This document shows positions 48,667-64,000 of a DNA stretch of 64,000 nucleotides, in pieces; the stretch's first letter is position 1, and each line of letters opens with the position of its first letter. A program made the position numbers and the translations under genes. The stretch comes from Limobrevibacterium gyesilva. Its GTDB lineage: Bacteria > Pseudomonadota > Alphaproteobacteria > Acetobacterales > Acetobacteraceae. Location: positions 1 to 64,000 of the forward strand of contig NZ_JAPDNT010000025.1 in NCBI RefSeq assembly GCF_025989185.1, given 5' to 3'. The notes under the pieces were generated by a model, which saw nothing but the letters and a program-made list of their open reading frames with translations, ran no database searches and had not been told where the DNA came from.

Positions 48667-51591
48667 TCAGCGGTCCACATGCGCAACCGGGAACGACCGC
48701 AGGTCGCGCTGGGCGGTACGGAACACCGCGTCCTGCTCATGGCCTTTCTGGCGCGCGAGCTGCCCGACCCGCCGCGAGACGTATTCGCCCAGTGTCAGCG
48801 CGCCCACATTGCCGTCGGCGTCCTCGCCCGCCCGCCCGGCCAGCGCCTCGCGCACGGCATACACGAACACGCCGTTGCGGTTGTCGTAGCTGTCCAGCGC
48901 CTCCTGCACCGAGCCGCTGGCGGCCAGCAGATAGCGGCCGGTCTCGTGGCCCACATTGGCGAGGTTGTCGGCAGTGACCTGCCCGGAATGGCAGGTGTCC
49001 AGCAGCAGCAGCGCGTCGCGCGCCTCGATGCGCGCCAGGGCGCCCACCAGCGTGCCCTCGTCGATCGCCTGACGGGCCATCGCCTGCCAGGACGAGACGT
49101 CGGACAGGTCCTGCGGGATCAGCAGGAAGCGGTCGGTCTCCTCGTCGCGCACGCCGTGGGTGGCGACATAGAACAGGAACGTGTCGCGCGGGCGAACCTG
49201 CTTCGACAGCCGCTCGAACGCCGCCAGGATGCCGGCCTTGGTGGCCTGGTCGTCCAGTAGCTGCGTCACCTCGACCGAGCTGTACAGCGGGGCGGCGGCG
49301 CGGCGGATGCCTTCGGTGAAGGCGCGGGCATCGGCGACCGCGTATTGCAGCGTCAGCGAGTCGTTGGCGAAATGGTCCACGCCGACCGACAGCACGAACA
49401 GCCGCCCGCGCCCGGTGGTGTCCGTCACCCCCTCGCGGGTCAGCAGCAAGGGCGCGGCCTGGGTGAAGATGGCGCTGCCGCCGTCGTACACGCGCAACTG
49501 CACCGTGTTGGCGCCGGGGTCCAGCGGCGCGTCCAGGATCACCGGCCCGCCGGCGGCCGGCGCGAGGCTGCGGCCGGTGTTGCGGTCGTTGACGAACATG
49601 TCGATCGGCCCGACGCCCAGGCCGCGCTCGGTCACCACCGCCGTCAGCCGCACGGTGGCTGTGTCCGCCGGCAGGGTCAGGGCCACGCCGGGTTTGATCG
49701 CCAGCGGCCGGCAGGACAGGTCGGGCTGCGGCAGGCAGGCATCCTTCACTTCCACCAGCGGCTGGCGCGCGAGGCGGTTGCGGATGTCGCCGAGCTCGGC
49801 CAGACGCGCCTGCGCCGGCGCCGGCTGGCCCAGCAGCCGGGCGCGCACCACGGCGGGTGCGTACAGCACGCGGTAGGCCTGGCTGAAGCTGACCCATTCC
49901 GGCTGCTGGTTGCGGCCGCGATTGAGGTGCACGCCCACCAGTTCGTTGCCGCCGCGATCGGCATGGTCGAAGAAGCCCTCGGGCGTGAACAGCACCCAGC
50001 GCGCGCCGTCGGCATGGGCGAACAGGGCGGCCCGCTCCTGCACGCCGCCGGCGGGCAGTGCCGGATCGAGCCCATACCAGCGCAGCGAGCCGTCAAGCAA
50101 TGCGGCCACGGCGATCCGGCCGCCGGCGGCCACGGTCACCGCCCAGGCGGCAGCCGGCGTGTCCACCGCGGCGATTTCGCGCCCGTCGCGCGCATACAGG
50201 CGCAGATGCGTGTCGGTGCCCAGCAACACACCGGACCCATCCGCCAGCACGGCCGCGCTGCGGGCGATCTCGTCGCGCTCCAGGGCCAGCCTGCGGCCAT
50301 TGAGCGTGGGCGCGCTGCTGTCGCGCCAGCCGGCCAGCGCCAGCCCCGGCGCCTCGGTGCGCGCCGGCGCCAGAGCGGCATCCGGCGTGCCGGCGGAACC
50401 AAGCGCGCGCTCCTTCACGGCGAAGCGCTGCAGGCCGTCGGCGGTGGTGAATTCGATCACGGCACCATCGGGCGACACCGCCAGCCGGCGCTCGCGCGCA
50501 GGCCGCAGATCGGCCAGCGGCGGCATCGGCCGGCGCAGCAGGCGCCCGTCGGAGCCGATGCGGCCCCAGCCCGGGTCCTCCGCCGCGAACACCGCGCCGC
50601 CGCCGGGCAGCGGCAGGATGTGGCGGATGGTGTCGTGCGCCGCCGCAAGGTCGGTGTAGCCGCCCAGGCCGAAATCGCCCCAGCGGCGGATCACGTAGCC
50701 GCCGGCGTCGTGAGCATAACCGCCAGCCAGCAACTGCACGCCCCCCTTGGCGTCAGCCGCCCACGCCGCCGCCAGCAGCCCCTCGCCCTTGAGGCCCGTG
50801 GTATCCGGACTGAACACCGGGGCCAGCACGCGTGCCGAGACGACGTCGATGCGCAGCCGCCCCGCCTTGTCCGCGGTCTCGCTGGTGGCGGCGAGCAGCG
50901 CCCCGTCCGGCGACAGCGCCAGCCCCCAGGGGCGCAATCCCGAAGGCAAGGCCGCCTCGGCCAGTTTGCGGCCGGAAGGATCGTAGGCGCGCAGCTTGCC
51001 GTCGGCAGCGGCGACATAGAGCCGCCCCTCGCGGTCGAGCACGATGGCGCGCACCGGGCCGGCATAGGCACGGTCCTCGTAGACCGCCTTGCCGGTGGCG
51101 GCGTCCCACACGCGCACCCCGCCCTGGGCGAGTCCGGCAGCGAACCGGGTGCCGTCGGGCGAGACCGCAAGGTCGTTCACCGGCGCGGGCAGCCCGCCCA
51201 GCAGGCCCACCAGAACGGCCCGCTCGGCGTCGAACACATAGATCGAGAAGGTGCCGTCCCATTGGCCGCCGGTGGCGCCGGCGGCGAACACGCGCCTGCC
51301 GTCGGGCGTGATCGCGACGGCGTAGATCTCGCCTTCCTGCAGCGTGCCGATGGGCGGGCGCAGCACCGCGCGCTGCGTGCCGTCGGGCAGCGACCACAGC
51401 CGCACGGTCTTGTCATAGCCGGCGCTGGCGAGCACCCGGCCGGAGGCATCGACCGCAAGCCGGGCCACGGCGCTGGTGTGGCCCCCGGCCTCGATGCGCA
51501 GGAACGGCTGCGGCGGCGGATCCCCGGCCACCGCCGGCCCGCCGGACAACACGCCCAGCAACAGGACGGCGGCGAGGAGCGCCCGGATCAA
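48667..51591 (-). CDS. Exported WD40-repeat protein with C-terminal caspase (C14) domain
   Basis: 974 residues from TTG at 51591, which places a signal peptide right at the start (LIRALLAAVLLLGVLSGGPA); no ATG fits. WD40/beta-propeller repeats fill ~30-600 (GHTSAVARLAVDASGRVLAS, then SAGYDKTVRLWSLPDGTQ). A beta-sandwich-like spacer follows, and a caspase domain spans ~728-960: RLFVLSVGVDHFANDSLTLQ, catalytic His ~812 in YVATHGVRDE, catalytic Cys ~867 in LLLDTCHSGQ. Both dyad residues are intact. It is the third gene of a minus-strand operon, 13 bp after the SH3/glycine-zipper lipoprotein. It is probably a periplasmic or surface-anchored protease switched by a propeller sensor. The substrate is unknown. 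Confidence 0.9.
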   Translation of the reverse strand: MIRALLAAVLLLGVLSGGPAVAGDPPPQPFLRIEAGGHTSAVARLAVDASGRVLASAGYDKTVRLWSLPDGTQRAVLRPPIGTLQEGEIYAVAITPDGRRVFAAGATGGQWDGTFSIYVFDAERAVLVGLLGGLPAPVNDLAVSPDGTRFAAGLAQGGVRVWDAATGKAVYEDRAYAGPVRAIVLDREGRLYVAAADGKLRAYDPSGRKLAEAALPSGLRPWGLALSPDGALLAATSETADKAGRLRIDVVSARVLAPVFSPDTTGLKGEGLLAAAWAADAKGGVQLLAGGYAHDAGGYVIRRWGDFGLGGYTDLAAAHDTIRHILPLPGGGAVFAAEDPGWGRIGSDGRLLRRPMPPLADLRPARERRLAVSPDGAVIEFTTADGLQRFAVKERALGSAGTPDAALAPARTEAPGLALAGWRDSSAPTLNGRRLALERDEIARSAAVLADGSGVLLGTDTHLRLYARDGREIAAVDTPAAAWAVTVAAGGRIAVAALLDGSLRWYGLDPALPAGGVQERAALFAHADGARWVLFTPEGFFDHADRGGNELVGVHLNRGRNQQPEWVSFSQAYRVLYAPAVVRARLLGQPAPAQARLAELGDIRNRLARQPLVEVKDACLPQPDLSCRPLAIKPGVALTLPADTATVRLTAVVTERGLGVGPIDMFVNDRNTGRSLAPAAGGPVILDAPLDPGANTVQLRVYDGGSAIFTQAAPLLLTREGVTDTTGRGRLFVLSVGVDHFANDSLTLQYAVADARAFTEGIRRAAAPLYSSVEVTQLLDDQATKAGILAAFERLSKQVRPRDTFLFYVATHGVRDEETDRFLLIPQDLSDVSSWQAMARQAIDEGTLVGALARIEARDALLLLDTCHSGQVTADNLANVGHETGRYLLAASGSVQEALDSYDNRNGVFVYAVREALAGRAGEDADGNVGALTLGEYVSRRVGQLARQKGHEQDAVFRTAQRDLRSFPVAHVDR

Positions 51592-51604
51592 CGGCCCGCC
51601 CCGG

Positions 51605-52594
51605 TCAGCTCGCCAGTTCGAAGCCGCTTGCGGCCGCCTGTTCGGACACCGCCACGCTCTGGGAGAAGCTGTCGCGGCGCGCGGCATTGCTGCCGGCCAG
51701 CATGCGCACATCGTTCCCGCCGCTGCCGCCCGACGACAGCAACGGGGCGCTTCCGGTTGCCCCCTGGATGGCGGAGGCAGGCGCATAGCCGCGCGCGCCG
51801 CTGGGTGTCTGCACCAGCACGTAGCCGCTGCGGCTGGGGGTGACGATCACCGGGTCGCTGGCGTTGAGCTGGCCGATATCGGCGGCAGCGGGATCGGGCT
51901 GCAGCTTCAGGGGCGCAGCACGGCGCACGGTGGCCGGCCGCGGCGCCGGCGCCTGGGTGGCGATAGCCGTCTTGGTGCCCGGCGCGAGGTTGTCCGCCGC
52001 CACCTCGAACTGCTCCGACCGGCCCTGGATCTGGCCGTTGATCTGTTTGGCCAAAGCCAGGTCATGCTGGACGTGCTGCTTCACCGTCCCCATGCGCGCC
52101 TCGGCGAGGCTGCGGTCGATGCGCCCGGCCTTGTAGTCCACGCGGATGGCCTGGGCCTGGCGGAAGCGGCAATCCATCAGCTGGTCGAAGGCCTGCTGGG
52201 TGCGATCGATATTCGTGTTCTCCCGCGCCAGGTCGCTGCTCACCTGGGTGAACATCCCGGCCTGGTCGTGTTGCTGCTGCTGCAGCGCCGACCAGTAGCC
52301 GCCGGCCGCGCCGAGCGCGCCGCCCGCGGCCGCCCCGATCAGCGCGCCTTTCCAGTCGCGCCCGATCAGCGCGCCGAGCGCCCCGCCCGCCACCGCACCG
52401 ACGGCGGCACCGGTCAGGATCTGGGTGCCGAAATAGTTGCCGGTGGAATCGAGCGCGACCAGCTGGGCACGGCACGGATCGGTGCTGTCATTCGGCCCGA
52501 TGCGCGCCTCTTGCGTCGAGAACGCGCCCTGGGCGCAGCCCGCCAGCAGGCCGGCGACGGCGAAAAGCGAGATGCAGAGGCGCAGCGGCTTCAT
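51605..52594 (-). CDS. Lipoprotein with glycine-zipper and SH3-like domain
   Basis: 329 residues from ATG at 52594. Lipoprotein signal (LCISLFAVAGLLAGC, lipobox LAGC). A glycine-zipper pair is at ~65-110 (GAAVGAVAGGALGALIGRDW, then GALIGAAAGGALGAAGGYW), followed by a helical Gln-rich segment and an SH3b-like C-terminal region (LNASDPVIVTPSRSGYVLVQ, then TPSGARGYAPASAIQG). Glycine zippers insert into or span membranes; SH3b domains often bind peptidoglycan peptides. It lies 13 bp upstream of the WD40-caspase TTG, so the two are co-translated. It could be an envelope pore or anchor serving the protease; that is inference. Confidence 0.85.
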   Translation of the reverse strand: MKPLRLCISLFAVAGLLAGCAQGAFSTQEARIGPNDSTDPCRAQLVALDSTGNYFGTQILTGAAVGAVAGGALGALIGRDWKGALIGAAAGGALGAAGGYWSALQQQQHDQAGMFTQVSSDLARENTNIDRTQQAFDQLMDCRFRQAQAIRVDYKAGRIDRSLAEARMGTVKQHVQHDLALAKQINGQIQGRSEQFEVAADNLAPGTKTAIATQAPAPRPATVRRAAPLKLQPDPAAADIGQLNASDPVIVTPSRSGYVLVQTPSGARGYAPASAIQGATGSAPLLSSGGSGGNDVRMLAGSNAARRDSFSQSVAVSEQAAASGFELAS

Positions 52595-52649
52595 CGGCTT
52601 GCGGATTGGCACGTGTCTTCTCCCGAACGGCAGCCCAGCGGGGCGCCGC

Positions 52650-53744
52650 CTACGACCATAGCTTCGCCCATCGGGACTGTCCCATGGCCGTGGCCGTATC
52701 GCGCCCCAGGTCACGGAATTTACCCGATATCGCCGCCAGGCGCGCGTCCCATTCGGCGTTGATCGGCTGGCCTTCGATGGTGGCGTGGAAGCGCACCGTC
52801 ATCATGATGAGGAACAGCGGCTTGATGAACGCGGCGCGCAGCGGCCCGGCCAGCAGCACCGCGATCAATACGGTCATCAGCCCGCCGAGCTCGCGCGCCG
52901 ATTGCGGCAGCGCCAGCGTGATCAGGCCCGCCGGAACCAGCAGCACGAACCACAGCGCCACGCTCATCGCCCGTTCCAGGATCACCGACCAGATCGCCAT
53001 CTTCAGCACCGGCCTGGCGTTCTGGGTGTAATAGACGAGGCCCTCGCGGCTGCTGCGCCAGGGATCCTCATCGCTGCGGGCGAGGTTGTAGGAGAAGATG
53101 ACCTTGTCGAGATACCGCGTGGCCGCCTTCAGCACCATGTTGACGAGGTGGGACAGCGAATCCAGCCCGGGGATCGGGACCAGGTCGGCGATCCAGTCCA
53201 GGGTGCGATGGAACGCCTCGACGACGCCGCGCACCAGCGCGTTCAGGCCGAACAGGACATTGGCCTGCACGAAGCGCTCGATCACCACGCGCCGGCCATA
53301 CGCGAACATCGATTCGCTGCCGTTGCCGACGGCGCCCTTGGTGATCAGCTCGGTCAGCACGGCGACGTGGCCGCACTCGATGAGGTGCAGCACGTAGCGC
53401 AGGATGGCGCCCCAGACGAAGCTGGCGCCGAGCAGGCACAGCACCAGCCAGATCCAACCGAACACCGTGGCGACATGCGTGCCCAGCCAGGCGGCGCCGC
53501 CGAAGGTGACGACGATCCAGACGATCGCGGCGACGGAAGCGGCGAGCAGAACGCCGAACCGGGCCATGGCGTATGGCAGGCTGCGCAGCATCAGGCCGAT
53601 GGCGGTGGCGAACGAGGCGTCGCGCACCGCCAGCGGATAGGCATGCCGCACGGCGGAAGAACCGGCGGCCGGCGTGGCCGTGCCGTCCGCCCATGCGGAA
53701 CCGGGGGGCATGCGCACGGTTTCGTCGGATGATGGTTCCGGCAT
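52650..53744 (-). CDS. Multi-pass membrane protein of unknown family
   Basis: 364 residues from ATG at 53744 (GAGG 7 bases upstream; a longer frame to 53801 is less likely). At least six hydrophobic stretches, including LLAASVAAIVWIVVTFGGAA, FGWIWLVLCLLGASFVWGAI, MSVALWFVLLVPAGLITLAL and GGLMTVLIAVLLAGPLRAAF. Between them is a conserved-looking loop (RYLDKVIFSYNLARSDEDPW, then RSSREGLVYYTQNARPVLK). The arrangement faintly recalls the C-terminal half of choline-transporter-like (SLC44) proteins, but I cannot support that. First gene of the operon with the lipoprotein (55-bp gap) and the WD40-caspase protein. Confidence 0.75.
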   Translation of the reverse strand: MPEPSSDETVRMPPGSAWADGTATPAAGSSAVRHAYPLAVRDASFATAIGLMLRSLPYAMARFGVLLAASVAAIVWIVVTFGGAAWLGTHVATVFGWIWLVLCLLGASFVWGAILRYVLHLIECGHVAVLTELITKGAVGNGSESMFAYGRRVVIERFVQANVLFGLNALVRGVVEAFHRTLDWIADLVPIPGLDSLSHLVNMVLKAATRYLDKVIFSYNLARSDEDPWRSSREGLVYYTQNARPVLKMAIWSVILERAMSVALWFVLLVPAGLITLALPQSARELGGLMTVLIAVLLAGPLRAAFIKPLFLIMMTVRFHATIEGQPINAEWDARLAAISGKFRDLGRDTATAMGQSRWAKLWS

Positions 53745-54781: not shown

Positions 54782-56091
54782 CGGTTCATCCCCGCAGGCG
54801 CGGGGAACACCAAGAAGGCGCGGCCATGACGTGCCACGTCTACGGTTCATCCCCGCAGGCGCGGGGAACACTGCAGCCGCTCCGTGCGGACGAAGTTGAA
54901 CCCCGGTTCATCCCCGCAGGCGCGGGGAACACTGCGTCTCATTGATTTTCACCGGGTCGACGCTCGGTTCATCCCCGCAGGCGCGGGGAACACTTCGGAC
55001 CACAGCGGTGGCGCGCTCGCAGATGCGGTTCATCCCCGCAGGCGCGGGGAACACCTCGCCGGCGCCGCCTTCCCCGCTGCCGCCACCGGTTCATCCCCGC
55101 AAGCGCGGGGAACACGCGGCTCCGATGCGGATCGGATCGTCCCTCTGCGGTTCATCCCCGCAGGCGCGGGGAACACCGTTACGACGGGTCCAGTTATCCA
55201 ACCGTGACCGGTTCATCCCCGCAGGCGCGGGGAACACGCAGCGTTCACGGAGGGGGGTTGGTGCCTGGGCGGTTCATCCCCGCAGGCGCGGGGAACACCA
55301 GCCGCCGCTCCCGCTTCTGTGGTTCGACGCCGGTTCATCCCCGCAGGCGCGGGGAACACGTCACCTTCGCATCACGAGAGAGTAGGTCGTACGGTTCATC
55401 CCCGCAGGCGCGGGGAACACCAGCGGCGCAAGCTGCTGGGGGTGATCGAGGACGGTTCATCCCCGCAGGCGCGGGGAACACGTGTTGCGGATCGGATCAG
55501 GCTCGAAGATCCCCGGTTCATCCCCGCAGGCGCGGGGAACACCTCCCGGAGCCACGGCGCCGGGTTTCTCCAGCCGGTTCATCCCCGCAGGCGCGGGGAA
55601 CACGCGGTCTGGAAGAAAGGCATGCCCGTGGAAAACGGTTCATCCCCGCAGGCGCGGGGAACACATGCCCGCGCGCCTGTACAGGCACGCCTCGCACGGT
55701 TCATCCCCGCAGGCGCGGGGAACACATGGTGATGACATTCGGAATGGACAGGGAAACCGGTTCATCCCCGCAGGCGCGGGGAACACGAGCCCGAAGTGAA
55801 GTTGGGCAAGGGCCTGACCGGTTCATCCCCGCAGGCGCGGGGAACACTTCATCGACCGCGTGCGTTTCAGCCTGCGCACCGGTTCATCCCCGCAGGCGCG
55901 GGGAACACACAGCCCGCCAGCGCAACGCAATCCCTGCCCGCGGTTCATCCCCGCAGGCGCGGGGAACACTACAACGGCCTCATTCGGGCGAATTGGTCCA
56001 CCGGTTCATCCCCGCAGGCGCGGGGAACACAGCATGGCACGCGTTACCGCGAAGCGGTCACGCGGTTCATCCCCGCAGGCGCGGGGAACAC
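54782..56091 (-). CRISPR. Type I-E CRISPR array, 22 repeats and 21 spacers
   Basis: 22 copies of a 29-bp repeat at an exact 61-bp period, with every one of the 21 spacers 32 bp long. On the minus strand the repeat begins GTGTTCCCCGC and ends GGGGATGAACCG, the canonical I-E type with stem CCCCGC/GCGGGG. All copies are identical except the sixth from the left (55087-55115), which has one G-to-A change (plus strand) in the loop between the stem arms. There is no degenerate terminal repeat at either end. The cas genes lie to the right and point toward the array, so the leader end and newest spacer are at the right (56091). Spacer targets cannot be determined here. Confidence 0.99.
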
Positions 56092-56151
56092 TCTTCCCAG
56101 AAGTGCTTGCGACATAACCCAGATCCACTCTTCAAAGAACCTACCGAAGAA
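56092..56151 (-). promoter_or_regulatory. CRISPR leader
   Basis: 60 bp between the cas2 stop and the first repeat, noticeably richer in A/T than the surroundings. A weak promoter match on the minus strand, TTCTTT - 17 bp - TATGTC, could drive the array. I do not see a good IHF consensus. The functional leader may extend into the end of cas2. Confidence 0.65.
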
Positions 56152-57460
<1,309 letters not shown>

Positions 57461-57470
57461 GGCCGCCCGG

Positions 57471-58154
57471 TCAGGCCCGCCGCAGCAGCATGAGGCCGCA
57501 GCCGAACGCCCGGGCCCGCCCCAGACCACAGGTGACGGCCGCGACCAGCGCCGCCGGCTCGGTCACCGTCAGCACGCCCTCGAACGCAAGCACGCCGAAC
57601 TCTGCGCACACGCTGCCGCCGCGCGGGATGCGGACCGTATCGTAGCCATCGATCCGCAACAGGTCCGTCTCGAGTGCGAACCCTGCACGGGTGCCCTGAC
57701 GCGCCAACCACTCCGCCCCCGCGGTCACGATGGCGGCCCTGCGCGCGCCCGCCCGCTCCTCCCGCGGCATTCCGTGCAGCGCATCCATGACGACGTCGTG
57801 GCGCTTGCCGCGCACACCCGGTGCGGGGCTTCGCGCGACGGTGGGGTTGGCGCGCAGCAGGAACCCGAGCCGGTCGCCCCGGCGCAATCCCGGCGCCCAG
57901 GGTTTGCTCTCGACATCGAACAGCGCGCCATCGGCCTGGGCCGGCCGCGGGGCGAGGATCAGGAACGCACCGGGCTGCTCCTCACGCCACAGGAAATCCC
58001 GGGTGCGCCCCGGACCATCGGACATCAGGGACCACACCAGCCGATGCGCAGCCCCCAGGCGGGCATGCCCGTCCTCCGGCAGCAACAACGGCGCGATCGC
58101 CTGCACGCTGCTGTCCGGTCGCAGCCGGGCGCGGGAGAGGAACATGCCTGTCAT
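57471..58154 (-). CDS. cas6e: crRNA-processing endoribonuclease Cas6e
   Basis: 227 residues from ATG at 58154, overlapping the cas5e stop by 4 bp. The N-terminal helix has the catalytic-type His in LGAAHRLVWSLM. The RRM-type second domain ends with the glycine-rich loop CGLGRARAFGCGLMLL, diagnostic of Cas6. It cleaves the precursor transcript at each repeat stem and stays bound in Cascade. Confidence 0.96.
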   Translation of the reverse strand: MTGMFLSRARLRPDSSVQAIAPLLLPEDGHARLGAAHRLVWSLMSDGPGRTRDFLWREEQPGAFLILAPRPAQADGALFDVESKPWAPGLRRGDRLGFLLRANPTVARSPAPGVRGKRHDVVMDALHGMPREERAGARRAAIVTAGAEWLARQGTRAGFALETDLLRIDGYDTVRIPRGGSVCAEFGVLAFEGVLTVTEPAALVAAVTCGLGRARAFGCGLMLLRRA

Positions 58155-58894
58155 GGCGTGGCGCCAACGGAAGCGGGCAGCGGCAGGCCGATCACCGCCT
58201 CCTGCCGGAGGGAGAATTGCCAGCGGTCGCGGCTGGCGATGCTGTCGCGCCGCGTCTCGATCCAGCGCGGCGGGATTCCGTCGGGAATGCCGTCGAGATC
58301 GGTCGCCAACGTGACCGGGCGGGCGCGCAACCGCGACCGGACAATCTGCTCCGGTATCGGAACCGGGCGCGCCTCCATCGCCGCCAGCGGGTCGGCGGCC
58401 GCCACGACGACGGGGCCGGGCGGCAATCCCAGCGGACAGGACTTGCGGCCGATCGAGAGCGTGAAATTCGGCCGCAGCAACGCGTCGGCCAGATCGGCCA
58501 ACGGCACCGGCGCCTCGGCTCGCGCCCAGGCCGCGACCGTGTACAGCGAGTCGGTGCGGTATTCGCGACGCGACAGGATCGTCTCCAGCGGACGCGCATC
58601 CAACTCCGCCCGCCGTGTCGCATGATGCTCGCCGCGGCGCGCGGGCGGCACCTGAGCCGTGTGGTAGTCGCTGAGGGCCACGCCCGGCGCATCGACGCGA
58701 ACGGCCACGCCATAACCGCGCTCCATGGCCGCATGCGTCGCTGCCGCCGTCCGCTCGATGCCCAAGGCGGCCGACAGCAGGCCGAGCAGGGCCGAGCGGC
58801 CGGGGCGCATCTCCCCGCCCCGCCGCTCGCCGACCGCCACGCCACCAAAGGCCGCCATGGGGCCGTGCAGCACGAAGACCAGATAGTCCCGCAC
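58151..58894 (-). CDS. cas5: Cascade subunit Cas5e
   Basis: 247 residues. N-terminus DYLVFVLHGPMAAFGGVAVG, then RRGGEMRPGRSALLGLLSAA, SDYHTAQVPPARRGEHHATR and YRTDSLYTVAAWARAEA match CasD. It caps the 5' handle of the crRNA in the Cascade complex. Overlaps cas6e by 4 bp and starts 3 bp after the cas7e stop. Confidence 0.96.
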   Translation of the reverse strand: MRDYLVFVLHGPMAAFGGVAVGERRGGEMRPGRSALLGLLSAALGIERTAAATHAAMERGYGVAVRVDAPGVALSDYHTAQVPPARRGEHHATRRAELDARPLETILSRREYRTDSLYTVAAWARAEAPVPLADLADALLRPNFTLSIGRKSCPLGLPPGPVVVAAADPLAAMEARPVPIPEQIVRSRLRARPVTLATDLDGIPDGIPPRWIETRRDSIASRDRWQFSLRQEAVIGLPLPASVGATP

Positions 58895-58897
58895 CGC

Positions 58898-59938
58898 CTA
58901 CACCCCCCGGCAGAACGCGAGAATGTCGTCGAGCGCGCCGGTTTCGCCCACCAGCATCTCGCATCGCCGGTCGGCGCAGGGGCCGTAGGCGGCGTCCATC
59001 GCCGCGCGCAACTGGCGAAGCTGCTCCACCGATGCCGCCATCACATCATTGCCCACAACCGGCTTCAGGAACGCGCCGGCAAGAGTGCGCGGCGTCTGGT
59101 CCCCGGCCTCGGCCAGCACGTAGTGCGCCCGCGCCCGGCTGGCGAAACTGGCCTGCTTGCCGGTGGGAGCCACGGTCGCGGCGGCGCGCACCAGCGCGGA
59201 TAGCGCCGTCGCCGCGAGGCCCTCATCCGACAGGTTACGCCGCAGCAACGCGATATCGGCGCAGATGTACAGATAGAACAGGCCGGCGGCAAAGCCGGCT
59301 TCGCCCAGGAAGCCCGCGCCGGCATCCTCGTCAGGCGTCTTGAGGTCATCGACGGCGACGTAGTAGTCGTCCTCGACCGCGATCTTGTGGGTGGTGATGG
59401 CGTGCGCAACCTGCACCGCCGCCTCGCGGTTGTAGTCGGGATTGTCCGCCAGCATGCGGCCGAACATGGCGATGTCGGCGGCGGTGTCCTTCTGCCGAAG
59501 CAGGCTTGCCGCATTGGGCTCGATCTTGGCGCCGGCGGCGGCCTGCTCCGCCATCGCCAGTGCGGCTTCGCGTTCCTCGGCGGAAATGAAGGCGAGCTGC
59601 TCCGTGCGGGTCGGGTTCTTGTCGGCCTCCGGCTTGACCTTGCCGAACACCGGAACGATGTCGCGGGCGATCCTGGTGGCCTTCGCCGCGTCGGTGCCGC
59701 GGGCAATCAGATGGTCGCGGATGACCTCGCCGAGACGCTGCGTGCGCTCGCCGCGATGGCCGTCCAGTGCCGCCTTGAATGCGTCCGACGTGCGCCAGGC
59801 GCGCTTCAGGGACTGCGACGACAGCCGCAGCCGCGTGGCCCCGCCGATGACGGCCGTCTTGGGCCGCCCCGTATCGTCGCGGTTGAGATTCGCGGGCGGG
59901 TAGAAGGTCAGCAGATGGAGTTGCAGGAAACGGCTCAT
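58898..59938 (-). CDS. cas7: Cascade backbone subunit Cas7e
   Basis: 346 residues from ATG at 59938, overlapping the cse2 end by 4 bp. CasC marks: LQLHLLTFYPPANLNRDDTG, RPKTAVIGGATRLRLSSQSL, KRAWRTSDAF, and a later FLYICADIALLRRNL region. Six copies normally form the crRNA-coating filament. Length is normal for the family. Confidence 0.97.
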   Translation of the reverse strand: MSRFLQLHLLTFYPPANLNRDDTGRPKTAVIGGATRLRLSSQSLKRAWRTSDAFKAALDGHRGERTQRLGEVIRDHLIARGTDAAKATRIARDIVPVFGKVKPEADKNPTRTEQLAFISAEEREAALAMAEQAAAGAKIEPNAASLLRQKDTAADIAMFGRMLADNPDYNREAAVQVAHAITTHKIAVEDDYYVAVDDLKTPDEDAGAGFLGEAGFAAGLFYLYICADIALLRRNLSDEGLAATALSALVRAAATVAPTGKQASFASRARAHYVLAEAGDQTPRTLAGAFLKPVVGNDVMAASVEQLRQLRAAMDAAYGPCADRRCEMLVGETGALDDILAFCRGV

Positions 59939-60495
59939 GCGGATGCGTCCTCGCTGGCGAATGCAACTGCATCCGCGTCGTTGGCAGTGATGTCGGCGGT
60001 GGTCCCGAAATCCGGCGCCTCGTGATAGGCGTAGATCCAGCGGCGCCGCTGCTTGTCGTTCCAGCGCCACAGGCTTGCCGCGAGGTCGGCGACGTTCAGC
60101 TTGTGGCCCGCGAGTGCCACGAGGCGACGGAAGCCGATCAGTTGCTCGTCGTCGGTGTCGGCCTGCAACAGCCGGCGGAATCGCAGGTCGGAGATCGCGG
60201 CCTTGCCGTCCTGCTGGACGCCCACCTGCCGGGCGACAGGAAGTCCGCCGACATTGTCGCGGACATGCGCAAGCACGGCGGCGATCAGCGCCGCGCGTCC
60301 AAGGTCGCACTCGGTTCCGCCCAGCCGCCGGCACAGGGCGATGGCCGCCGGCTCGCCCGCCGCCTCCATCACCGTCGCGCAACGACGCAGCCTGGCGAGC
60401 GCTGCACGGTCGCCGCGGCGCGGCTTCCCGGCCTCGTCGCACGGTTGCAGATCACGCCACCATGCGGCGGCGATTGGCCCCGTCTTCGGGCTCAT
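59935..60495 (-). CDS. cse2: Cascade small subunit Cse2 (CasB)
   Basis: 186 residues from ATG at 60495, overlapping the cse1 stop by 4 bp. Family marks: AAWWRDLQPCDEAGKPRRGD, RAALARLRRCATVMEA, RFRRLLQADTDDEQLIGFRR, WRWNDKQRRRWIYAYHEAP. Two copies stabilise the R-loop in the complex. The end carries an acidic tail (ITANDADAVAFASEDASA). Confidence 0.95.
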   Translation of the reverse strand: MSPKTGPIAAAWWRDLQPCDEAGKPRRGDRAALARLRRCATVMEAAGEPAAIALCRRLGGTECDLGRAALIAAVLAHVRDNVGGLPVARQVGVQQDGKAAISDLRFRRLLQADTDDEQLIGFRRLVALAGHKLNVADLAASLWRWNDKQRRRWIYAYHEAPDFGTTADITANDADAVAFASEDASA

Positions 60496-62153
60496 GTGCG
60501 TCTCTTCCCTGCTTTCGCCACGGATTTCGGTTTGGCGACGGCCGGCGGCGGCAGCCCCAGCGCCCGGAACAACGACTCGCCATCCTTGCCGTAGCCGTTC
60601 AACGCAAAGCGGAGGCCCTTCGCCGCGGCGGCAATGCGGTCGGGGCGGCGATCGGCCCCGGTCGCGTCGATGGGCGCGGCTTCGGCAAACAACGCGGCCG
60701 CGGCGCCGGCGAGATCGCGCAGCCATTGCCGCCGCACCGCTTCAGCTTCGATGGCCCCGCCGGCAGCGGCCTGCACGCGTTCGAGAAATGCCGGTTCCGT
60801 CGTGGCCCAGAAGCGCTCGCGCAGTGTGGTCAGCAGCCCGGCGTCGAGCGCCACTTTCGCGCCGTCCGAGAACAGGGCGCGTCGCACGGCCCGGCCCAGC
60901 AGCGCCGCCGCGTCGTTGGCGCCAGCGATCAACTGGCGCAGAAGCTGGACGAACGCCTCGGTTCGCTGCGGATCACCCGGTTCGATGACCGGCATCTCGC
61001 TCTCGACGAACCCGCGCGCCTTCATGTTGTCCATGTCGTAGCCGGCAGCCAGCAGCCGCCACCGCAGCCGATCGCCGCCTTTCGCCACCTGCCACAGGCG
61101 TCGCTCGCGAAACCGGCTGATGCACCGGGCGGCGCGGCGCGTCGTCGCCGCATCGGCAAAGATCAGCCCGACCCAGTGCCGGTAGCCGACGCCGCCCGGC
61201 TGGGCGTGAACCGGGAGCCACTGCGCGTCGGTCGGCTTCTGCCGGTAATAGGGAGACAGCGGATGCTCCCAGGCCGCATAGTTCGTGCCATACGGTCGCT
61301 GCCGCCAGGCGCGCACGACAACACTGTCCGTGGCGCCGCTGAGGTCGCACGACGCACTGTCGACGTTGTCGGCGAATTCAAGCCGGATGCGCCGCGCCAT
61401 CCCCCAGAACGCGTGCCGGTCGTGGGTGTCGGTTGGCGTCGTCGAACGCCCCGCTTCGCTGGTCCGCGTGGGCGCAAGCCACGGGAAGATCCTTGGCAAC
61501 TGCTCGGGCGTGGGGACCTCGCCCACCGGCACGTTCGCCCACAGCAAATGCCACAGCGGCAGGCTTCCGTTTCGCGGCGGCACGGCAAGCGTGGTCAGCG
61601 GCCCGCCGCCGCGCAGCCCGACCCGATTCCCGGCGCCGCCGGCCGGTGCAAAGGATTGCAGCGTGAACAGGGCCATCGCCGCCGCCGCGCGACCCATGGT
61701 CGCAACCGCGTTGCGCTTGACGAAATGATCGGCATTCTTCTTCAGCGTCTGGCCGCCCGGGGCGTCGATCAGCAGCGTCTCGATCCGGTTGGCGTCACCC
61801 GCAACATCCTCGAGATCCTGCATGAAGCGCGGACCGTCGCCGTCAAGGACAAATGCATGCGCGAACGGCGCAAAGGCTTCCGCCAGCACATCCGGCGACG
61901 GTGCCACCTTCCACCAATCCAGCCATCCACCCGGTTCGTCCGTACCGTCGTCATCGGCCGGCGGACAGGCGGTGGCGAGCAGTCCGATCAGAAACTCCAG
62001 GCCGGCGAGCCGGAAATCAGGTCGCGGCCAGTCCAGTGCCACGATCGGGTCCGTGGTGATGGCGTCGGTGATGTCACAGAGTCGGACGGTCAGCGCGCGG
62101 CCACTGGCCCGGCGCACGGGGACCCATGCGTCCGACAGCAATGAGAATGCCAA
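60492..62153 (-). CDS. cse1: Cascade large subunit Cse1 (CasA)
   Basis: 553 residues starting with TTG at 62153, supported by GGAG 7 bases upstream. CasA marks: LLSDAWVPVRRASGRALTVR, GLEFLIGLLATACPP, RFMQDLEDVAGDANRIETLL, and PGGQTLKKNADHFVKRNAVA. A four-helix-bundle C-terminal domain follows. It recognises the PAM and recruits Cas3. It is the first gene of the cse1-cse2-cas7-cas5-cas6-cas1-cas2 operon and is slightly longer than the E. coli protein (~500), with a Lys-rich tail. Confidence 0.97.
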   Translation of the reverse strand: MAFSLLSDAWVPVRRASGRALTVRLCDITDAITTDPIVALDWPRPDFRLAGLEFLIGLLATACPPADDDGTDEPGGWLDWWKVAPSPDVLAEAFAPFAHAFVLDGDGPRFMQDLEDVAGDANRIETLLIDAPGGQTLKKNADHFVKRNAVATMGRAAAAMALFTLQSFAPAGGAGNRVGLRGGGPLTTLAVPPRNGSLPLWHLLWANVPVGEVPTPEQLPRIFPWLAPTRTSEAGRSTTPTDTHDRHAFWGMARRIRLEFADNVDSASCDLSGATDSVVVRAWRQRPYGTNYAAWEHPLSPYYRQKPTDAQWLPVHAQPGGVGYRHWVGLIFADAATTRRAARCISRFRERRLWQVAKGGDRLRWRLLAAGYDMDNMKARGFVESEMPVIEPGDPQRTEAFVQLLRQLIAGANDAAALLGRAVRRALFSDGAKVALDAGLLTTLRERFWATTEPAFLERVQAAAGGAIEAEAVRRQWLRDLAGAAAALFAEAAPIDATGADRRPDRIAAAAKGLRFALNGYGKDGESLFRALGLPPPAVAKPKSVAKAGKRRT

Positions 62154-62281
62154 AACGTCGCTCCATTACGAAAGACAAGGGAACGCGGCAAACCGTGGCG
62201 CAGCGAAGTGGACGCCACGAGGGCTCGGCGATTCGGCCGACGACGATCTATTCCAGGCCGATTTCGCGGCGCTTTCCTTTA

Positions 62282-62310
62282 ATCGTACAACCGTGCCGGT
62301 CGTGTATCAA
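62282..62310 (-). promoter_or_regulatory. Predicted promoter of the Cascade operon
   Basis: On the minus strand TTGATA (62305-62310) and TACGAT (62282-62287) are separated by exactly 17 bp, in a local A/T-richer patch. Predicted transcription start is near 62275, giving a ~120-nt leader to the cse1 TTG. The remaining 62154-62495 interval between cas3 and cse1 holds no gene that I can support. Confidence 0.6.
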
Positions 62311-62495
62311 TATCCTGCCGCGCGTCCCTCGCGAAAGCCAGGGCTCGTTCGCTTTGGGTCTTGCGAAAAGACCTCAGACGGTCTGACACCAGGCAAGCCG
62401 GCCGCTCTCCCGAGGAGGGCCAGGAGCTGCTTCATCCAGCCGCATTGCGTTCCGGAGACGGCATGGATTATCGCCGGATCGCAGCGACGCCCCGC

Positions 62496-64000
62496 TCATA
62501 TCGCCATCAGTCCTCGATGCAGATCGTAGGTCGCGCGCCGCCCGCCCTTTTCAGTGGCAACGCTCCCCTCCCACCCATCCGGCGAGCGTGTCATCACCAG
62601 CATCGGCAAGTCCTGGTCCCATCGCCCCCACTCACGTTTCGCCGCCGCGACAGCCTCCGCGAGCGGACCGGTCGGCGTGGGCACGCCCGATGCGCGCCAG
62701 GCTGCCAGCGACACCTCCGACAAGGCCCAGGCCAGACGCGGCGAGTCCGCCTGGCACCACGGCGACAAGACGCCGTCACACCAGCGCGCGAGACGAAAGG
62801 TCACGCTCTCCTCCGACAGGCGGGTCGGTGTGCGGACGTCGCTGTCCCAGCCCTGCCCGGAGTCGTATCCGTCCTTCCAGACCAGGACATTCATCTTGCC
62901 CATGGCGATTGCGGCGCTTTCGACACCCTGCTCGGCCGCCAATGCGGCGCGCAAGCCCTCGGGCACGTCGTCCGGCTTCGCGTACACCGCCTCGATCAAC
63001 CGCCGTACGTCGCCCGGCGTGGCGATCGCGCCGGTCCCGAACAGCTCGCGCGCGGTCCGCCACAGGATGGTCCATCGGTAGATGTTCCGCGTTCGCCGCA
63101 ACGGTCCGCAGAGCCAGCCGCCATCCGCGTCCGTGGTGGGCTCCGGTGAAACCACCAGCAGCCTCGGCGTGTCCGCTGCCGCCGGGCGATCCGGCCGCGC
63201 GTGCCGCCACAGCCGCCCGGCGCGCTGGATCAGCAGGTCGATGGGCGCAAGATCCGACACGATCAGGTCGAAATCGAGGTCGAGGCTCTGCTCGATCACC
63301 TGGGTCGCCACCAGCACGCGCCCGGCACGCTCCGTCTGCGCCGCAATGCGGCCGAACCGCCGGATCGCCGCCTCCTCGATCTGCAACCGATCGCCCATGG
63401 CAAAACGGGCGTGGAACAAATCCGCGTCGATCCCATCCGTGCGAAGGGCAGCATGGCCCTCGATCGCGTCGTCCACCGCATTGCGGATCCAGGCAACCGC
63501 CAGCCCGGCCCGCGCCGCCGCTGCGATCCGAGCGACGGCGGCCTCGGCAGTCGCCAGCCGCTCGACGACCACGTTTCGGCCGAGCTCGCGGCGCGGATCG
63601 CACGGCTGTTCCAGCGCGCCGCCCGCGGTCGCCAGCGTGACCAACGGATAGTGGTCACAGGCAAGTTCGGATGTGCTTCCTCCCGCCCCGCGATGGAACG
63701 CGGTGACCAGCGCCGCGCGCCGCGCCTGCGGCAACGTCGCCGACAGGATGATCGTGCTGCCGCCGAGGCCGGCATGGAACGCCACCAGCGTTTCCAGCTC
63801 CTGCGACATGTAGGCGTCATACGCATGGGCCTCGTCCACGATCAGCACGCGCTGCGACAGACCGAGTTGTCGCAGGGCCGCATGCCGCGCCGGCAGAACA
63901 GCGAGCAGAGCCTGATCGATGGTGCCGACCCCGACATCGGCGAGGAATGCGCGGCGCCGATCCGAGGCGACCCAGGCCGCGCACTGCGCGCCTGCGGTCT
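62496..64000 (-). CDS. cas3: CRISPR-associated helicase-nuclease Cas3, N-terminus beyond window
   Basis: The frame is open from the window edge to the stop at 62496, giving ~500 residues of the helicase and C-terminal parts. Visible: motif II VDEAHAYD, motif III SATLP, the second RecA domain with LVATQVIEQSLDLDFDLIVS and QRAGRLWRHARPD (motif VI), and a C-terminal domain. The HD nuclease domain and Walker A lie upstream, outside the window. Cas3 is recruited by Cascade and degrades target DNA. It is separated from cse1 by 342 bp with an apparent promoter, so the two transcripts may be independently controlled. Confidence 0.97.
   Translation of the reverse strand, partial: TAGAQCAAWVASDRRRAFLADVGVGTIDQALLAVLPARHAALRQLGLSQRVLIVDEAHAYDAYMSQELETLVAFHAGLGGSTIILSATLPQARRAALVTAFHRGAGGSTSELACDHYPLVTLATAGGALEQPCDPRRELGRNVVVERLATAEAAVARIAAAARAGLAVAWIRNAVDDAIEGHAALRTDGIDADLFHARFAMGDRLQIEEAAIRRFGRIAAQTERAGRVLVATQVIEQSLDLDFDLIVSDLAPIDLLIQRAGRLWRHARPDRPAAADTPRLLVVSPEPTTDADGGWLCGPLRRTRNIYRWTILWRTARELFGTGAIATPGDVRRLIEAVYAKPDDVPEGLRAALAAEQGVESAAIAMGKMNVLVWKDGYDSGQGWDSDVRTPTRLSEESVTFRLARWCDGVLSPWCQADSPRLAWALSEVSLAAWRASGVPTPTGPLAEAVAAAKREWGRWDQDLPMLVMTRSPDGWEGSVATEKGGRRATYDLHRGLMAI

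Follow-up and report, generated by a model that had tools for sequence, protein, structure and literature searches.

The stretch of DNA analysed here (the window) covers positions 1 to 64,000 of contig NZ_JAPDNT010000025.1 of Limobrevibacterium gyesilva, and three genes on its minus strand, at positions 48667-53744, are the subject of this work. Read from 53744 down to 48667, they encode a multi-pass membrane protein of 364 amino acids (52650-53744), a TagQ-like lipoprotein of 329 amino acids (51605-52594) and an exported WD40-caspase of 974 amino acids (48667-51591, with a TTG start at 51591). The gap between the membrane-protein gene and the lipoprotein gene amounts to 55 nt, that between the lipoprotein gene and the caspase gene to 13 nt. 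An initial annotation had described this arrangement as a three-gene envelope module of membrane protein, glycine-zipper/SH3 lipoprotein and exported WD40-caspase that might sense stress or attack, and all three genes were found as described. The unit that is kept in relatives consists of the lipoprotein and the caspase, and within the order Acetobacterales this pair depends almost perfectly on the presence of a type VI secretion system (T6SS).

For the comparison, 84,980 species were scanned and the best 80 caspase relatives were kept as named loci, all from named Acetobacteraceae and near kin or from metagenome-assembled genomes (MAGs) placed among them on the caspase tree. The whole caspase is conserved at 46-82% identity across about 80 species, which rules out chance open reading frames. 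In all 67 informative relatives, meaning those with sequence reaching far enough, the gene immediately upstream of the caspase gene is that of the lipoprotein. The caspase loci that apparently lack it are not real exceptions, as they end at contig borders or, in one case (L239), consist of masked sequence, and they were left out of the count. The junction of the two genes mostly ranges from -4 to +8 nt in relatives, which makes co-translation plausible. The membrane-protein gene, by comparison, adjoins the pair in three loci only, namely the window and two related MAG loci (L198 and L200). Its homologues at 62-64% were found in two genomes without the pair (G057 and G202), and those at approximately 30% sit elsewhere, away from the pair. 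Synteny across genomes thus holds for the lipoprotein and the caspase and fails for the membrane-protein gene; the core unit is two genes, with the membrane-protein gene as an optional neighbour, and the three-gene module of the initial annotation has to be given up.

The caspase starts with a signal-peptide-like N-terminus (MIRALLAAVLLLGVLSGGPAVAG). Pfam recognised WD40 repeats (70.9 bits) and a Peptidase_C14 domain (35.9 bits, over the cut-off of 21.4), and the AlphaFold model, with a predicted local distance difference test (pLDDT) score of 88.5, divides the protein into a beta-propeller (residues ~29-570), a beta-sandwich-like region (~612-720) and the C-terminal caspase domain (~730-974). 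Counted from the TTG start, the catalytic dyad consists of His812, whose codon forms part of the invariant His812-Gly813 pair at 49153-49158 on the minus strand, and Cys867 in the D-T-C-H motif (residues 865-868, codons at 48988-48999, minus strand; alignments A1 and A3). The initial annotation had placed an intact dyad at about these residues behind the propeller and the signal peptide, and His812, Asp865 and Cys867 proved to be invariant in 40 of 40 aligned homologues. With both the Pfam score and the dyad in place, the protein belongs to Peptidase_C14. A PF00656 scan of the L. gyesilva genome did not list this caspase and was disregarded, given that hmmscan of the protein itself gave the match over the cut-off. 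The position of Asp865, two residues ahead of the catalytic cysteine, presumably resembles the acidic pocket of metacaspases that cleave after Arg or Lys. Two further cysteines, Cys619 and Cys627, are likewise invariant in all 40 homologues and would fit a periplasmic disulfide. Among named caspase families, NCBIfam NF047832 (EACC1-associated caspase) scored highest with 68.1 bits over the catalytic domain, below its cut-off of 140 bits, and a sequence search of the PDB with the caspase domain returned weak matches to metacaspases and GSU0716 only.

A generic caspase model of PADLOC also matched the window caspase with 44 bits. Together with the caspase fold and its intact dyad, this match would suit a cell-suicide or abortive defence effector in which the released caspase kills the damaged cell. 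We consider such a role highly improbable, since the window caspase is exported, whereas the known caspase-type defence effectors are cytoplasmic, and since no defence genes were recognised beside the pair in relatives. It would also leave the strict dependence on the T6SS unexplained. The clustering with defence genes that the initial annotation had put up for checking was not borne out either: the neighbours of the pair in relatives vary or are T6SS genes.

The lipoprotein carries a lipobox (LLAGC) with a cysteine, Cys20, that is invariant in the lipoprotein alignment (A2), and the residue at position +2 after it was Asp in none of the 53 homologues scored, which fits sorting to the outer membrane. 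Its AlphaFold model (pLDDT 86.7) comprises a glycine-zipper helical hairpin (residues 42-107), two long helices (111-203), a bacterial SH3 domain (219-272) and a C-terminal helix (293-323). Pfam supported the glycine zipper with 33.8 bits (cut-off 28.9), while SH3_3, with 24.5 bits, narrowly missed its threshold of 27; both the AlphaFold model and Foldseek showed a barrel of the SH3 type, which spans residues 219-272 in the model. The NCBIfam model of TagQ (NF041250), a lipoprotein of T6SS regulation in Pseudomonas, matched with 61.6 bits over profile positions 11-194 of 301, well short of the curated cut-off of 300 bits, and 12 of 12 family members matched it as well. A comparison with a genuine TagQ by hhalign gave a probability of 98.6% and an E-value of 9e-16 over 171 columns, extending past the zipper. 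Judged by these alignments, the lipoprotein is a distant TagQ homologue with the lipobox and the glycine zipper of that family. The reference TagQ scored 505 bits on the same model and is encoded in an operon with PppA, PpkA, ABC genes and the FGE-sulfatase protein TagR. As the lipoprotein misses the TagQ cut-off and lacks this gene context, the pair was classed as a variant of a T6SS sensory module and not as TagQ itself. A pore-forming role of the lipoprotein was rejected, as Foldseek gave merely insignificant MakA-type matches (probability 0.41, E-value 0.06). Paralogues of the lipoprotein with about 35-42% identity and no adjoining caspase occur several per genome in L093, L106-L110 and other genomes of genus g20.

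The association with the T6SS was quantified by surveying 250 Acetobacterales genomes, with TssK, and then TssC, as markers. The caspase was present in 41 and TssK in 71 of these genomes, and TssK was found in 35 of the 41 genomes with the pair versus 36 of the 209 others; the corresponding Fisher test (p = 5e-17) overstates the significance, because the genomes and species are related and not independent. Of the six pair genomes negative for TssK, five are drafts that all contain TssC. The sixth, G144, is a complete single-contig genome with neither marker and the only surveyed pair genome of the order without a T6SS. Here, the pair itself is broken (L073, G144:C1 ~2379600-2383600): a stop codon interrupts the lipoprotein gene, and the caspase frame is split. 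Within the genera g9 and g20, the presence of the pair and that of the T6SS agreed in every genome seen. In a second test, TssC was detected in all 45 genomes in which the pair stands apart from T6SS genes, some species of which were also part of the survey, while a control draw from the same order contained TssC in 13 of 58 genomes. The T6SS background in the order is 22-28%, and every genome tested with an intact pair, in the survey and in the second test, has a T6SS. Most of the T6SS clusters read also include FHA and PppA. The near-perfect genomic dependence of the pair on the T6SS within the order is an observation, and the caspase is probably a part or a regulator of this system.

Such tight dependence, in combination with the location of the pair among structural genes and an SH3 domain that could bind peptidoglycan, would also be expected of an assembly or maturation factor. 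In that case, the caspase would clip an envelope part of the T6SS (TssJ, TssL, TssM or a peptidoglycan-facing component) or make room for the trans-envelope complex, and no sensing would be involved. However, 36 of the 71 TssK genomes, about half of the T6SS genomes of the order, do without the pair, which marks it as an accessory that is not essential to the T6SS, and the pair occurs without a T6SS elsewhere. We therefore regard maturation as unlikely.

The pair is also physically linked to the T6SS. In 21-25 of the 80 named loci it abuts T6SS genes, which were identified by NCBIfam in one locus and by sequence similarity in the others, and these T6SS-linked contexts occupy separate clades of the caspase tree. 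In Falsiroseomonas, the pair lies between Hcp and VgrG, and in Roseococcus, Pseudoroseomonas and two MAGs (L224, L230) it is located ahead of VgrG. In Siccirubricoccus phaeus (L213), the next gene after that of the caspase codes for a PpkA-like kinase. Clusters of the Pseudomonas type contain pppA, followed by ppkA, the ABC genes, tagR and tagQ; in Roseomonas sp. AR75 (L235), the pair comes straight after TssM-TagF-PppA, and the place after pppA is held by the TagQ-like lipoprotein and the caspase. The consistent partner of the pair is thus the T6SS together with the genes for its post-translational control. At L316, the protein encoded beside the pair consists of a caspase domain followed by DUF4384. 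In the genome of L. gyesilva, a T6SS with FHA, TagF and PppA is located on another contig; near it, a kinase is encoded whose outer part matches DUF4384 weakly. The kinase was rejected as an obligate third gene, since kinases with the DUF4384-like domain occur in numerous genomes with a T6SS, whether or not the pair is present, and adjoin the pair only in Siccirubricoccus.

The site beside VgrG frequently hosts immunity genes, and this raises the question of whether the anchored caspase acts as a protective periplasmic protease. It would destroy incoming T6SS effectors or needle parts that are mis-assembled, or block them, and thereby shield T6SS carriers living among armed kin, a matter of immunity and not of sensing. 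The genomic dependence on the T6SS would fit this explanation equally well, and the retention of the pair without a T6SS outside the order would fit a general protective function. On the other hand, the joint loss with the T6SS in G144 would be odd, as cells without a T6SS are still attacked, while the linkage to tagF-pppA and the kinase points to control and the lipoprotein is related to a regulator. Protection is not likely in our judgement, though slightly less doubtful than maturation; these two are the chief alternatives to the sensing model. A role of the pair as secreted T6SS effectors is unlikely too, because both proteins start with an export signal and show conservation instead of polymorphism.

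What, then, could an exported caspase contribute to a T6SS? In Pseudomonas aeruginosa, mechanical or chemical injury of the outer membrane leads to T6SS assembly only if the outer-membrane protein TagQ and the kinase PpkA are present (PMC11881912), and periplasmic TagR and the ABC pair TagTS stand between TagQ and PpkA (PMC10482370). In an atomic force microscopy study from 2025, an unknown signalling molecule is still postulated to act upstream of PpkA (PMC11881912). The lipoprotein of the window resembles TagQ of the H1-T6SS pathway TagQRST-PpkA in its glycine zipper followed by long helices, in its tie to the T6SS and in homology over the 171 columns mentioned above. It differs in the additional SH3 domain and C-terminal helix, and in its partner, which is a WD40-caspase in place of the FGE-sulfatase TagR and the ABC pair TagST. 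Within the pathway, the pair would be analogous to the TagQ-TagR arm. By analogy, we propose that it is a periplasmic TagQ-like/caspase accessory module that detects damage to the envelope and thereupon permits the T6SS to fire in Acetobacterales, a reading to which we assign a probability of about 0.5. Regarding the sensing device of the initial annotation, the exported caspase dedicated to a lipoprotein partner stands and a sensing role is probable, although not as a module of three genes.

A possible course of events can be outlined. The lipoprotein, probably anchored in the outer membrane, would hold or position the exported caspase in the periplasm, and envelope damage, for instance from the attack of a rival, would release or activate the caspase. 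The active protease might then cleave a periplasmic substrate, for which our favoured candidate is a component gating a PpkA-like membrane kinase with a DUF4384-like outer domain. The signal would pass to the kinase and the FHA protein and, restrained by PppA and TagF, would license sheath assembly. A precedent by role, and not by sequence comparison, is RtkS-PpkA of Serratia, where a periplasmic protein activates the T6SS kinase (PMC10482370) as proposed here for the pair; no caspase domain is reported for RtkS. That periplasmic proteolysis by a lipoprotein-held caspase is the very trigger turning damage into T6SS retaliation, and hence that a caspase-run tit-for-tat sensor arose in Acetobacterales from an older lipoprotein-caspase envelope sensor, in use without a T6SS in other classes, is a tentative suggestion.

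Several findings weigh against a sensory role in T6SS control. Besides the T6SS genomes that manage without the pair, the relatedness of the surveyed genomes and the low score on the TagQ model, no TagR, TagS or TagT was seen adjoining the pair in those loci whose genes were read one by one, the caspase being there instead. Furthermore, seven genomes outside the order contain the pair or its lipoprotein, and TssC is present in one and absent from six of them (G304, G416, G566, G620, G536 and G582). The basic activity of the pair cannot need a T6SS, because the pair occurs there without TssC, and occurrence together with a T6SS that has a kinase, FHA and PppA holds within the order and not outside it.

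With regard to these distant pairs, the neighbours are of other kinds: a CHASE2-adenylate cyclase in G304, a MoxR-VWA combination in G416 and G512, and a second caspase in G566 and G620. At L319 (6302-13072), the TagQ-like lipoprotein, the WD40-caspase, an exported protein of 239 amino acids and a CHASE2-adenylate cyclase are encoded in a row, which suggests cyclic-AMP signalling from the same kind of sensor pair. In two genomes of one family, genes for a MoxR-type ATPase and a VWA-type protein come after the pair (L320, 7382-13804; L321, 7336-14119). Such company of other signalling genes would agree with a general envelope-stress sensor protease that happens to be retained in those soil and water lineages with larger genomes in which a T6SS is retained as well, so that the association would be ecological and not mechanistic. 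This is improbable, and slightly more so than maturation, given that separate clades repeatedly show the pair physically linked to T6SS genes, and given the TagQ homology, the joint decay with T6SS loss and the agreement of pair and T6SS throughout the genomes seen of g9 and g20. For the damage-sensing module favoured here, the simplest evolutionary account is that an older envelope sensor made up of lipoprotein and caspase was later tied to the T6SS in Acetobacterales.

Some further features of the window and of related loci deserve mention. The membrane protein has about four hydrophobic segments and no match in Pfam; in genus g9 (L094-L098), its homologues at ~30% keep their place upstream of two further genes that are likewise conserved, and have no relation to the pair. 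The window region 54782-64000 contains a type I-E array of clustered regularly interspaced short palindromic repeats (CRISPR) with about 22 repeats and a period of 61 nt (CGGTTCATCCCCGCAGGCGCGGGGAACAC), and past the array, cas genes including cas1, cas6e, cas7, cse1 and cas3 follow on the minus strand. In the relatives' loci compared, no homologue of these cas genes and no type I-E CRISPR-Cas counterpart was found beside the pairs; a link of the pair to CRISPR was rejected, as this neighbour was seen in the window genome only. In the genome's own T6SS cluster, a protein of 187 amino acids without a Pfam match is encoded between Hcp and VgrG (L141, 13457-14020) and might serve as an effector or adaptor. 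Within L143 (969-17213), the own T6SS and a two-partner secretion locus, which encodes an exoprotein of 3956 amino acids and a ShlB-type transporter, flank the gene of a Ser/Thr kinase that has one membrane helix and matches DUF4384 weakly.

In comparison with previous work, the parts of the pair are of known kinds, a TagQ-like lipoprotein and a WD40-caspase, and the novelty lies in their combination and in the T6SS dependence, neither of which was found in the papers searched. WD40 metacaspases and orthocaspases of Peptidase_C14 share the caspase fold, the His/Cys dyad and the WD40 repeats with the window caspase, and N-terminal helices as possible signal peptides were noted earlier in prokaryotic metacaspases (PMC3501461). 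The window caspase differs from them in its obligate lipoprotein partner, its export signal and its T6SS dependence, a set of traits not found for WD40-caspases in the literature searched; likewise, a caspase-T6SS link of this sort was not found in those papers. For the relay of envelope damage to the T6SS kinase, a T6SS-dependent caspase together with a TagQ homologue offers a concrete candidate step that can be mutated at Cys867. Moreover, one class of the exported WD40-caspases of bacteria, proteins commonly treated as death proteins only, would thereby gain a likely function.

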